From positions 1,369,529 through 1,433,528 of the forward strand of contig NZ_JAGGKR010000001.1 of assembly GCF_017873855.1 (NCBI RefSeq): DNA of 64,000 nt, read 5' to 3'. The notes beneath the pieces are model-generated. The model worked only from the letters and a program-made list of their open reading frames with translations. It was not told the origin of the DNA and made no database searches. The position numbers were made by a program, and so were the translations under genes. Origin of the DNA: Methanolinea mesophila (GTDB lineage: Archaea > Halobacteriota > Methanomicrobia > Methanomicrobiales > Methanospirillaceae). This document shows positions 10,835 through 14,540 of the stretch, in pieces. Every line of letters starts with the position of its first letter. Positions within the stretch are counted from its first letter, which is position 1.

Positions 10835-11362
10835 TTATGCGGTAAAGATGTCTGCCAGTTCATTGAACTGGTACCCGCTCGCATCGAAACTGTTGGTCCG
10901 GAATACCCAGGTCTTTCCGGCGGGGAGGAAATAGGCGCTTGCGACCGCGTTTCCAATGAGCGCCCCATTCGCATTGAAGAGATTAAAAGTCACTTCGATA
11001 TATTCGACCGTATACTCGCTGTCGTTCTTGATCCTTCCGGTAAGGTAGAGTCTGCCTGAACTATCCGTCTCTACCCTGGTCTCCTGGAGCGTGGCATGGA
11101 GTGCCGGGTTGGGAACAAACTTTTCGTAGCCCCATGGCCTGGTCACGAACATCTCGCTCCCCTCGGGGAGCACTATCACACCTTCGGGAGCGGTCCCCGT
11201 TCGGGTCGTTTCGGTTCCGACCGGGCTGATGGTGGGGGTCTCTGTCGCCTGTGCCGGACCGCCCGGGACTCCGGGGGCCAGGCATCCGCACACGAGGAGC
11301 GTGAAGCTCAGTATCATAATCGCGGAGAATATTCCGGCCCATTTTGTTCTGGCTGAGTTCAT
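10835..11362 (-). CDS. Secreted lipoprotein with FxLYD-type domain
   Basis: 175 residues. The signal peptide (residues 1-26) ends in a lipobox-like LLVCGC, so the protein is probably lipid-anchored outside the membrane. A Thr/Pro/Gly-rich linker (about 30-60) follows. The C-terminal half is a small beta domain with the FxLYD-like pattern: YLTGRIKNDSEYTVEYIEV, then FNLFNANGALIG and FLPAGKTWVFR. Such domains occur in many archaeal surface lipoproteins, with unknown ligands. Start supported by AGGAGG 8 bases upstream. Solitary gene; an A7 tract just after the stop (10828-10834) is a T-run on this strand. Confidence 0.8.
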   Translation of the reverse strand: MNSARTKWAGIFSAIMILSFTLLVCGCLAPGVPGGPAQATETPTISPVGTETTRTGTAPEGVIVLPEGSEMFVTRPWGYEKFVPNPALHATLQETRVETDSSGRLYLTGRIKNDSEYTVEYIEVTFNLFNANGALIGNAVASAYFLPAGKTWVFRTNSFDASGYQFNELADIFTA

Positions 11363-11468
11363 TCTAGATTCCTCCTGATGAACACATTCGGAGAGCGTGC
11401 TATTTAAGGTATTTCGTGAAATTCTAAAAAAAGCCCGGCCGGGGGGTTTTTAGTTGCCCCCGCGCCGG

Positions 11469-11810
11469 TTACCGGAAAAGTATCTGGAGTTTCCTGTTTA
11501 CATGGTCTGAGACCGGAATCGCATCGGACTCGATATGATCGGGACATTCGCGGACTGCCACCATGATATCATGCTCTGTGATACCGAGCAGTTCGTGATC
11601 CACCACCTCCGACAGGTAACGGGATTCGGATTCAAGGCATCGAAGGAGAACAGGTTCTCCGTTTCGGTGCCCGATGAAGTACCGGTACGATCCGAGCTGC
11701 AGCCCCGGGGGTTCGGTGAGCTGATCTGAGCCCTCCTGGCCCTCCTGAAATGGAGGGGTTCGCGGGGTGATTTCATATACCATTCCCGGGGCCGGTCCTG
11801 CCCTTGTCAT
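11469..11810 (-). CDS. Hypothetical protein, about 113 residues
   Basis: Not recognised. I chose ATG at 11810 because GAGGTG lies 6 bases before it; a GTG three codons upstream (11819) is also open but lacks such a site. The protein is acidic/mixed, with a proline-rich first quarter and a C-terminal half (YRYFIGHRNGEPVLLRCLE, then VVDHELLGITEHDIMVAVRE) that looks like a folded alpha/beta domain. No membrane segment, no cysteine pair. The good ribosome site and plausible composition argue for a real gene. Confidence 0.5.
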   Translation of the reverse strand: MTRAGPAPGMVYEITPRTPPFQEGQEGSDQLTEPPGLQLGSYRYFIGHRNGEPVLLRCLESESRYLSEVVDHELLGITEHDIMVAVRECPDHIESDAIPVSDHVNRKLQILFR

Positions 11811-12071
11811 TCTTTTCACCTCTGAATCTGACTATTCGTAAGGATACGCGGGAATGCCGGGCCATCGAAATGCCCCGGCACGCCAGGATTCGCACAAATC
11901 TTCCCTTATGACCGCAGCACCTCCTGTCCCTATATTATGGACGGAAGGATTTATCCTTCTGAATTATTTAAAATTTTTTATAGCGGCATCGTGCATCGGC
12001 CCTGGTCTTGCGGAATCACTTTTTAAAATTCCCTGCAAGGGCCATCAATAAAGGTCTAATTTGCTTTGTAT

Positions 12072-12110
12072 AATGCTCCAGATGCCCTGCCCCGCCGCTT
12101 TTTCGCTCCT
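12072..12110 (+). repeat. Dispersed GC-rich repeat, copy 1
   Basis: Shares GCTCCAG, a GCCCCGCCGCT core and flanking bases with copies near 14.6, 53.9 and 61.3 kb, and inverted at 12.2 kb. Closest to the copy at 53850, with similarity extending a few bases upstream of GCTCCAG. Confidence 0.55.
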
Positions 12111-12202
12111 ACGAAATATGCCGGGACCATTTTTTAGTCTGGTATCCTTTACCGATGAGTTTTGCGATATCAGCCAGGGTTGAACTTTTCCAGAAACCAC
12201 CG

Positions 12203-12239
12203 CACCGCGCTGCCAGAGCGGCGGGGGCGAAGGGCCGGG
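12203..12239 (-). repeat. Dispersed GC-rich repeat, copy 2 (inverted)
   Basis: Read on the minus strand it contains CTTCGCCCCCGCCGCT followed by TGGCAGCGC, matching the core of the copies at 14592 and 53850. Confidence 0.5.
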
Positions 12240-12302
12240 AACATCAGGAATAAGGATCTCAACAAAGTCGAAAATATGAAAAAAAATAGCCGGGTAAAAA
12301 AA

Positions 12303-13907
12303 TTAATGAAGCGGGGGCGCCACGTCGTCCGGCGCATTCTCGCCGACGAGGGTGCCCAGCATCTCGATCAAGGGCTGCAGTGATTCCGGAACTCCGGTAT
12401 CCACGGAAGTGACGGTTTTTCCTTCATATGTCACCGTGTAGGTGAAATAATCCGCTCCGGGTGCCGCGGGAGGATATTCGGGCAGCAGCGTGCTGAACGC
12501 CGCGTCCTGCAGGAGTTGCCGTATCGTCGAGAGCTCCCCGGCAGACAGGGTAATCCCCCGGGTAAACTCCTTCCGGGTCACGGTTGCGGTCCCGTCCTGA
12601 TAGACGGTGAGCGCGTCATTGAATCCGGCAAACCCTCCGGTCCTGGTAAATTCGACGAGTATGGGTTTTTCTTCTCCGGCGTCGGGAGCTCCTCTCACGA
12701 AGTGGAGGATCTCAGTGCCCCTGGCATCGAAGACCTGGAGATCATCCCCCTGAACCCTGAACCCCGCGGCTGCCGAAAGGAGGTCCAGGTATGTGTCCTC
12801 CTGTTCCATTACACCGTCCGGGGTGCAGTACATTTCGGTCCTTCCCGCTGCTCCCACGGTCAGTGTGTCCCCCGAGACCAGGTATTCGGCAAAATAATGA
12901 TTACATCCGGCGGTCCCGGTGAGCCGGTTCTCGCTCCCGAATTCGGCCGAGACTGCAGTCCCGGGGACTACCGTACGCGGTGATCCGTCGGCAATGTACC
13001 AGACGAGTGTCCAGACGCCCGAAACGGGGGAGTTCCCCGCGGGTGTGTCGAGCGGCTCAACCGAGAGGAGCGTGACCGGGACTCCCCACATTGCAATTGT
13101 GGCGACATCCTCCTCCGTGGCGGTGAAGCGGATCCTCGCCCCGTCCGCGGCATACGCCGCGGGGAGGTTCAACGGATAGTAATGTGCCCCGTCATCCGCG
13201 ACAATCCCATAGAACCCGCCCTCGAGGTCGAAGTACCGCACCGTCCCGGAGGCAGAGATCCCGCTTCCGGAGGTGCACGGTTCGAGGGAGTTCAGGCGCA
13301 GCGGTGTTCCCCACATCCTGACATTGGCCGCGGGTTGTCCTGCGATCCCGGTAAAGGAGACCTTAAGTCCGTCGACCTGGTATTCTTCAGGCAGGGAATC
13401 CGGGAGGTAATGCGTACCGTCATCGGCGATGATCCCGAAAAATCCGTCCTCAAGGTCGATGAACCGGATCACCCCGGTTCCGGAGACCACAGTGAACGAG
13501 CCCGGGTTTGTTCCCGGCAGAAGGAGACCCGAGAGCCGATTCTCGACAAGCTCACGGAACGACGCTGTCTTACTGTCGCCCTGGAACGGTCCGAAGGACG
13601 AGAGTGCGGTGATCCTAAAGATCCCGGCAGTATCTCCATCTGAATTGTGGAAATACTTCACTATTGCCGAATTTCCGGAAAATTCCCGGTTGTTACCCTC
13701 ATCGAACCGGGAGATTAGGTCCGATGCGACGGTGCCCCGGGCAGCCCCCGTGTTCTGGTGGTATTCCTGAAGCGTTGCAGACGATATTTCGGTAAAAGAA
13801 CCGCCGCTCGATATAAGAGCCGCCTCTGCGGTGCCGGCGACTCCAAAACAACACGCCAGGACCAGCAGGAGGGCCATGGCGCGGCTGCCTGCGATGTGAT
13901 ATTTCAT
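12303..13907 (-). CDS. Secreted protein with two tandem repeats, META (HslJ-like) domain and emfourin-like C-terminus
   Basis: 534 residues from ATG 13907, chosen because a clear signal peptide starts there (residues 1-29, ending AGTAEA). Order: unique N-terminal region (30-138); repeat 1 (140-209) and repeat 2 (218-285), each with a FFGIIADDGTHY / FYGIVADDGAHY motif and ending MWG.P..L.SLE-like; a META/HslJ-type domain (294-404) with TGTAGCNHYFAEY; and a C-terminal segment (415-525) with RTGGFAGFND, YQDGTATVTR and LSAGELSTIRQLL, resembling emfourin-type M4 protease inhibitors. The last assignment is tentative. Probably extracellular; target unknown. No coupled neighbour. Confidence 0.75.
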   Translation of the reverse strand: MKYHIAGSRAMALLLVLACCFGVAGTAEAALISSGGSFTEISSATLQEYHQNTGAARGTVASDLISRFDEGNNREFSGNSAIVKYFHNSDGDTAGIFRITALSSFGPFQGDSKTASFRELVENRLSGLLLPGTNPGSFTVVSGTGVIRFIDLEDGFFGIIADDGTHYLPDSLPEEYQVDGLKVSFTGIAGQPAANVRMWGTPLRLNSLEPCTSGSGISASGTVRYFDLEGGFYGIVADDGAHYYPLNLPAAYAADGARIRFTATEEDVATIAMWGVPVTLLSVEPLDTPAGNSPVSGVWTLVWYIADGSPRTVVPGTAVSAEFGSENRLTGTAGCNHYFAEYLVSGDTLTVGAAGRTEMYCTPDGVMEQEDTYLDLLSAAAGFRVQGDDLQVFDARGTEILHFVRGAPDAGEEKPILVEFTRTGGFAGFNDALTVYQDGTATVTRKEFTRGITLSAGELSTIRQLLQDAAFSTLLPEYPPAAPGADYFTYTVTYEGKTVTSVDTGVPESLQPLIEMLGTLVGENAPDDVAPPLH

Positions 13908-14081
13908 ATTGATCCGATTCCTCGGTTCGCGTGGAACCACGCTTAGATATGAAAGCATTTTGATAAATATCCTTCTTATACTGCGAAAATTTTCGCAACT
14001 ACGGATCGCACGGTCCGGCCTTGCAGGATGACAAAGTTATGTCAGGGCGAAGAGAGAGATCTGGTACAGGTGAGATCGTCG

Positions 14082-14540
14082 ATGAAGGAGCTGGAAGACT
14101 TTGAAGAGACCCTGCACCAGATACTCGAAAAAGGCGGCGAAGATACCGCGGCCCAATGGATGCAGGACATAGAACGGGAATACGGGAGGACCCCCCTGAT
14201 ATTCCAGAGAATGTCGGAGCGTCCCGAGGTCCTTATCTCCCACCTCCTCTATAAGGGAGCGGTTACCAAGACCAGTTCCCTTGATCCCAAGTACGTGGAG
14301 CTTATCAGCCTGGCGGTTGGGGCGGCGCTCCGCTGCAAGCACTGCACGGGGTACCATATGCAGGCCGCGATGAAAAAAGGAGCGTCGTGGGAGGAAATTC
14401 TCGAGGTAATCCTCCTTGCAGGTCTGATATCGAACTCCTCGGTCCTGGCCAACGCCTACCGGATCATCGATGAAAAGATGTCCCGCTGCATCCCCTGCGC
14501 AAACGAGGGCGTGGACCTTCCGCCCTGTGACGACCTGTAA
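14082..14540 (+). CDS. Carboxymuconolactone decarboxylase / AhpD-like protein
   Basis: 152 residues from ATG 14082. I prefer this start because CAGGTGA ends 7 bases before it; the frame is open back to ATG 14028 (170 residues), which has a poorly spaced site. AhpD-type fold with the CxxC plus histidine signature LRCKHCTGYHMQAAMKKGAS, the peroxidatic/thiol redox motif of the family, and the following helix EEILEVILLAGLISNSS. Likely a thiol-dependent oxidoreductase for peroxide or disulfide stress; the substrate cannot be read. The C-terminus adds two cysteines in RCIPCANEG. Monocistronic; a T7 tract right after the stop (14544-14550) is a likely terminator. Confidence 0.8.
   Translation: MKELEDFEETLHQILEKGGEDTAAQWMQDIEREYGRTPLIFQRMSERPEVLISHLLYKGAVTKTSSLDPKYVELISLAVGAALRCKHCTGYHMQAAMKKGASWEEILEVILLAGLISNSSVLANAYRIIDEKMSRCIPCANEGVDLPPCDDL

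Follow-up and report, generated by a model that had tools for sequence, protein, structure and literature searches.

The window under study, a stretch of 64,000 nucleotides from the methanogen Methanolinea mesophila, contains on its minus strand an open reading frame at positions 12303-13907 that encodes a protein of 534 residues from an ATG at position 13907. This frame, first proposed from the sequence alone, was confirmed. An in-frame ATG at 13958 provides a second possible start, which would lengthen the protein by 17 residues. Divergent from the gene is a plus-strand neighbor (14028-14540) encoding a member of the carboxymuconolactone decarboxylase family (AhpD-like; PF02627, 59 bits). 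On the downstream side lies a minus-strand gene for a small lipoprotein (10835-11362), the lipobox of which was assigned by eye and the DUF3426 match of which falls below the cut-off. The ∼940 bases between these two minus-strand genes (11363-12302) hold only a doubtful open reading frame of 116 residues; the corresponding gap in four relatives (L043, L086, L091, and L115) measures roughly 160-375 bases. Matches to the AhpD-like gene are retained in 31 of 141 loci and matches to the small lipoprotein gene in 27 of 141, with same-genome copies entered more than once in both counts. The kept neighbors speak for an old, vertically inherited gene rather than a recent import.

The overall architecture of the protein is that of a chain of modules. 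Residues 1-29 (13821-13907, minus strand, as are all features of the protein given below) form a likely Sec signal peptide. In the full model a hydrophobic helix extends from residue 2 to 24, and Ala 29 is nearly invariant in an alignment of 20 rows; cleavage after this alanine, between TAEA and AL, was assigned by eye. A variable linker, delineated by residues 30-137 (13497-13820), shows little conservation among relatives and is predicted to be probably disordered, with pLDDT values below 50 at residues 25-136. There follow two repeats, modeled as OB-folds and formed by residues 142-210 (13278-13484) and 218-285 (13053-13256), a META (HslJ-like) domain at residues 309-403 (12699-12983), and an emfourin-like tail at residues 413-534 (12306-12671). 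For the first repeat, the full model displays five strands within residues 139-210. The layout described in the sequence-only reading, namely a tandem duplicated domain, a META domain, and an emfourin-like tail in a secreted protein, is borne out, with secretion indicated by the likely signal peptide. The whole-protein model (pTM 0.31) provides no prediction of the domain-to-domain arrangement.

The strongest domain match in the protein is that to the META family (PF03724), which scores 68.4 bits (cut-off 24). Residues 291-411 of the model superimpose onto HslJ (2kts) with a Z score of 12.1 and an rmsd of 2.9 over 113 residues, and residues 309-403 are clearly a member of the META/HslJ family (PF03724; 2kts, 2la7). 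Whereas HslJ is a single domain, the META domain in this case is one module among several. HslJ and Leishmania META1 have been associated with heat induction, novobiocin resistance, and secretion, and not with proteases (PMC3270026).

The C-terminal tail matches the emfourin profile (PF20242) with 33.6 bits, above the cut-off of 27, in agreement with its earlier assignment as emfourin-like; DUF6438 ranks second, below its own cut-off. The tails of two close relatives lie under the PF20242 cut-off, with 22.6 bits for L115 and no match for L084. Comparison by hhalign of the tail with an emfourin that adjoins an M4 gene (L128:1163-1474) gave a probability of 98.6 and an E value of 1.1e-15, and the match to the solved emfourin 6zyg is weak (E 0.086). 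In 16 rows from relatives the tail is conserved at 36-55% identity to that of the window protein. Both the tail and emfourin (PF20242; protealysin-associated 6zyg) start with R-(T/S)-G-G-F, and on the basis of these sequence comparisons the tail is an emfourin homologue. It differs from emfourin in being secreted and fused, in carrying ∼14 extra residues, and in belonging to a genome without an M4 match. In a fold search with the whole model 6zyg is not among the matches listed, which is no evidence against the kinship. In the model, residues 413-533 also fit Mago nashi, an exon-junction protein, with Z scores of 8.6-10.6, large rmsd values of 3.5-5.3, and identities of 6-12%.

Emfourin is described as an inhibitor of protealysin and thermolysin that shares one operon with protealysin (PMC9505478). 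The sequence-only reading had accordingly implied an M4 protease as the target. This did not survive: the C-terminal domain profile of M4 peptidases (PF02868) has no match in the source genome, nor in 230 of the 232 genomes searched in the class, some of which are incomplete. Because of these 230 genomes, a plain M4 inhibitor was rejected as the likely function. Emfourin-type matches occur in 28 of the 232 genomes and M4 matches in two, and both are present together only in genome G001. There, an emfourin-protealysin pair of a related methanogen is located on contig 2 (L128:1160-2577). The emfourin, of 104 residues and 78.8 bits, is encoded by a gene that shares 4 bases with the end of the M4 gene, and both the emfourin and the protease appear by eye to be without signal peptides. 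The source genome additionally contains a standalone emfourin-like lipoprotein of 170 residues (L120:1456-1965, minus strand), which scores 23.6 bits against the cut-off of 27.

The two repeats are identical at 33 of 69 positions (48%; 75.5 bits), and the motif reported for them, (F/Y)(F/Y)GI(I/V)ADDG(T/A)HY, reads FFGIIADDGTHY and FYGIVADDGAHY. Neither matched any Pfam or NCBIfam family, and when 95 related repeats were scanned singly against both collections, none gave a match at E ≤0.001. The best stray matches among the 95 were, for one repeat, to the NigD OB domain in Pfam (E 0.0046) and to the NigD family in NCBIfam, where two repeats matched NigD1/NigD2, the better at E 0.0012. Five repeats strayed to DUF1344 (E 0.005) and one to CspA, a cold shock family of the same broad fold (E 0.083). 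In a profile search of the PDB, the cold-shock protein 5o6f reached E 1.3 to the repeat-family profile. A search of a literature library, by motif strings among other means, listed no paper on the repeat family. The module is therefore, as judged by sequence, a family absent from the Pfam and NCBIfam copies searched; the earlier statement that it belongs to no recognized family holds at the level of sequence families, and at the level of the fold it is an OB-fold. A viral or plasmid origin was also considered and rejected: PHROGs gave no match at E 0.1, and no plasmid match was found with a query that was flawed.

For repeat 2 modeled alone with AlphaFold2 from a 95-row alignment, the pLDDT is 94.2. 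The model is characterized by strands at positions 2-9, 15-20, 25-28, 41-48, and 59-67 of the repeat and by a short helical turn at 33-35, and it is confidently predicted to be a five-stranded OB-fold. A Foldseek search with this model placed potempin A at the top (E 0.011, probability 1.00), with no match below 0.001. Potempins A and D are OB-fold metallopeptidase inhibitors of Tannerella forsythia. With VIA-align 2, three potempin A entries superimpose onto repeat 2 with Z scores of 9.3, 9.2, and 9.0 and rmsd values of 1.9-2.0 over 67 residues. Six Bacteroidales proteins follow at 7.0-8.5, including 3k6o and 5bmt (both 8.5) and two titled NigD-like (4pqx at 8.4 and another at 7.3). Potempin D lies at 7.8, and other OB proteins lie at or below 5.9, potempin C among them at 5.8. 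By the rule of the program, rows within one Z unit are tied, and models without a clear match often show a best Z score of 7-8. The lead of potempin A over 3k6o, 5bmt, and 4pqx is less than one unit, and it is therefore formally tied with the NigD-type proteins. Repeat 1, taken from the whole-protein model, gave a Z score of 10.8 with potempin A (rmsd 1.9, 75 residues), 9.1 with potempin D, and 8.5 with a NigD-like protein. Potempin A was also first in the PDB by the family sequence profile, a weak match (E 0.045) confined to 35 positions and covering a Y-P-x-N-L...V-F stretch.

The OB-fold is thus common to the module and the potempins (8b2m, 8b2n, 8b2q; 8ehb) over nearly its whole length, at 18-24% identity in the structural alignments. 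The same fold is found in the N-terminal OB domain of NigD-like lipoproteins (PF12667), to which the window protein gives no match and one relative (L101) gives 15.9 bits against a cut-off of 24.3. NigD proteins have a second, different domain. We know of no inhibitor role for the six Bacteroidales fold relatives, the NigD-like ones included, and to our knowledge the OB-fold protease inhibitors described are the TIMPs of animals and the potempins of one oral bacterium. A common fold does not show a common function. Potempins are small lipoproteins encoded directly before protease genes (PMC7296668); unlike them, the window gene adjoins no recognized peptidase gene, and the loops of the module are conserved.

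This conservation is pronounced. At least 90% of the 95 rows retain Gly 4, Asp 10, Leu 11, Glu 12, Gly 13, Gly 14, Phe 15, Gly 17, Gly 23, Tyr 26, Leu 31, Asp 38, Gly 39, Phe 44, Trp 57, and Gly 58, and Pro 28 is kept in all of them. By the borders of the repeat-2 model, DLEGG forms the loop between the first and second strands, and WG ends the loop between the fourth and fifth; from OB topology, rather than from coordinates, we take both loops to lie at one end of the barrel. Archaeal and bacterial copies alike contribute to the 95 rows, at least 90% of which keep DLEGGF and WG. Inhibitors acting on many targets would be expected to have variable loops. The constancy seen here is more in keeping with a fixed partner or a structural need than with an arms race, and it is the chief argument against every copy being a target-specific inhibitor.

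The protein was described at first as unusual for a methanogen. That description has to be given up, since a two-row profile built from both repeats finds the module in 126 of the 232 genomes of the class. A 95-row profile finds it in 74 of 392 genomes sampled from the phylum. Among GTDB contigs, 138 candidate sites were confirmed, of which the best 80 were retained; 11 of these 80 are named as bacteria (Bipolaricaulota, Rhodothermales, Bacteroidetes, Neomarinimicrobiota, Atribacteria, and Actinomycetes). Among the matches listed, the bacterial modules are encoded in short frames, most of which resemble lipoproteins by eye. Since most of the eleven are metagenome bins, individual assignments to bacteria could reflect errors of binning. 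Across 118 loci there are 226 module copies in 114 open frames, with one to four copies per frame and with same-genome copies entered more than once. Contig 2 of the source genome holds a third copy (65612-65809), and the protein to which it belongs shows, by eye, a lipobox. At two places in other genomes (G132:C7:52739-52954 and G087:C3:270904-271113) the match crosses an in-frame TGA; these copies are perhaps decayed, or the match perhaps runs past the end of the gene.

Sorting of 82 distinct proteins by partner (loci L003, L007, and L039-L118; by short motifs rather than profiles) placed the module with DUF333 in 27 and alone or with an unrecognized partner in 26. It occurs with META plus the emfourin-like tail in 16, with I42 in seven, with META in four, and with the emfourin-like tail in two. 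The distinct frames number 89 once the remaining loci are added. In example proteins, Pfam confirmed the I42, META, and DUF333 partners as well as a Cache domain, and in 16 module-carrying proteins searched with Pfam no catalytic domain fused to the module scored above cut-off. The Cache-type sensor domain accompanies the module at L110, as identified with Pfam, and at L092, as judged by likeness; at both loci a nearby frame with an HESGH motif may encode a plausible membrane metalloprotease.

The fusions to I42 (PF09394), a chagasin-type domain of methanogens that inhibits cysteine proteases, take two arrangements. In group g73 of family f8, which we infer to be Methanosarcina, one open frame encodes I42 and, after it, the OB module in all 17 module-carrying genomes listed. 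The I42 match there is complete, beginning at profile position 3 or 4 and ending at 90 or 91; NPSTG replaces NPTTG in one of the 17. In 13 of 19 other OB-positive genomes, hand-chosen and including the source genome, the OB module comes directly after I42 position 78-80 of 91. In the proteins read, the end of the chain beyond it carries a short stretch that resembles, by eye, the missing last I42 strand. In these relatives, to go by the profile borders, the OB module seems to be inserted into I42 just after the RPW motif. I42 is Ig-like (PMC3901451) and not an OB-fold. With Pfam, no I42 domain was found in the window protein, and none of the seven I42 matches in the source genome is joined to an OB module. 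The two I42-fusion groups are separate in a quick tree; independent origins were nonetheless set aside, as a test of one clade did not reject a single origin (p-AU 0.349).

A tree of 175 repeats unites 20 first repeats, including that of the window protein, with a single second repeat (L019) at a support of 96/92 (bootstrap/SH-aLRT). The quick tree, with 86 rows, places neither of the window repeats, and each of the two trees is based on 66 columns. The grouping speaks for a doubling that predates these genera. A recent doubling is not supported, with repeat 1 of the window protein falling, in the larger tree, among the first repeats of its relatives.

The source genome contains two C1 and two S8 peptidase matches, one of each being in an exported-looking protein. 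A single frame of 2289 residues (L121, contig 1, 942706-944388) carries S8 (subtilisin) and C1 (papain) domains in tandem, followed by a lectin-like domain. Beside the window gene no peptidase was recognized, its neighbors being the AhpD-like and small lipoprotein genes. Within the 118 loci, four of which are META loci without the module, frames of at least 150 residues were scanned for the HExxH, S8, C1, and S1 motifs and for one additional signature. The scan revealed one S8 gene adjoining a module (L118) and no C1 gene; HExxH gave 18 matches, most of them apparently in wrong reading frames. Gene pairs in the style of the potempins were rejected, the scan having revealed no steady pattern of them. 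The one potempin-like neighborhood in the scan is that of L118 (1515-3219), from a Neomarinimicrobiota strain, in which ∼105 bases separate the end of the S8 gene from the likely start of the gene that follows, which encodes a single-module OB lipoprotein.

Taken as a whole, the window protein is tentatively regarded here as a secreted, compound protease-control protein with inhibition as its presumed activity, a reading to which we assign slightly less than an even chance. Protease control is nevertheless the best reading, because two unrelated inhibitor families occur in one protein with the module and because an inhibitor tops the fold list. The phrase of the sequence-only reading, a multi-domain extracellular binding or protease-control protein, is in this respect the best supported, through the position of potempin A, tied as it is with NigD-type proteins, and through the I42 fusions; rarity in methanogens and an M4 target have dropped out of it. 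In the mechanism envisaged, a flexible linker would carry four folded modules after export: the two OB modules, the META barrel, and the emfourin-like domain. These modules would bind and block extracellular peptidases, or keep them at a distance, with the emfourin-like tail and the OB modules serving as the binding heads. The targets would be either the archaeon's own C1 and S8 peptidases or those of fermenting neighbors. Protease binding, the identity of the targets, and the binding surface are all parts of the proposal that we infer. The conserved loops and the absent gene linkage to peptidases weigh against this reading and argue for caution, and the many copies of the module that stand with DUF333 or alone were likewise counted against it. 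On the same side stand the tie of potempin A with other fold relatives, its Foldseek E value of no better than 0.011, the lack of an M4 match in the source genome, and the lack of an I42 domain in the window protein. Broader still, and somewhat unlikely in our estimation, is the proposal that the repeat defines a widespread and novel OB-fold family of protease inhibitors, an archaeal and environmental counterpart of the potempins, which would make the window protein a multi-headed inhibitor built of unrelated folds. On this proposal, the OB module set in I42 behind the RPW motif in relatives would yield a two-class inhibitor made by insertion.

The same loops, with residues kept across archaeal and bacterial copies, would suit one fixed partner. 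They agree with a role for the OB module in docking or ligand binding, at the cell surface, S-layer, a glycan, or a peptide, whereby it would place other domains, inhibitors included. The unlike partners joined to the module (META, emfourin-like, I42, DUF333, and Cache) would also be in keeping with docking, as would the NigD-like and four other Bacteroidales proteins, in which the likeness of fold is about equal to that of the potempins. That an inhibitor occupies the top three rows of the fold list and that two of the partner families are inhibitors count on the other side, however, and the bacterial copies, short lipoproteins by eye, have nothing else to place. Docking is accordingly held to be possible, if doubtful. 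General envelope stress or secretion support of the HslJ type, with the tail and OB modules having lost an anti-protease activity or never having had one, is considered improbable. It would accord with META being the strongest domain match, with the associations of HslJ and META1 described above, and with neighbors among which no protease gene was recognized, but it leaves both the OB-I42 fusions and the conserved emfourin-like tail unexplained. We give very little credence to the tail acting as a classical emfourin on an M4 metallopeptidase of the protealysin or thermolysin type. The PF20242 score above cut-off and the profile match to an emfourin adjoining an M4 gene would suggest as much, yet the source genome has no M4 gene match, and any target would need to be a peptidase of another organism. 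Moreover, the emfourin of the G001 pair, with its 78.8 bits, its gene overlap, and its apparent lack of a signal peptide, contrasts with the secreted, longer tail observed here.

If protease control is the correct reading, a domain present in over half of the searched genomes of the class would gain a testable function, namely the control of extracellular proteolysis by archaea living among protein-degrading bacteria. Under the same reading, an archaeal set of OB-fold inhibitors, some of it integrated into a second kind of inhibitor domain, would likewise be new.
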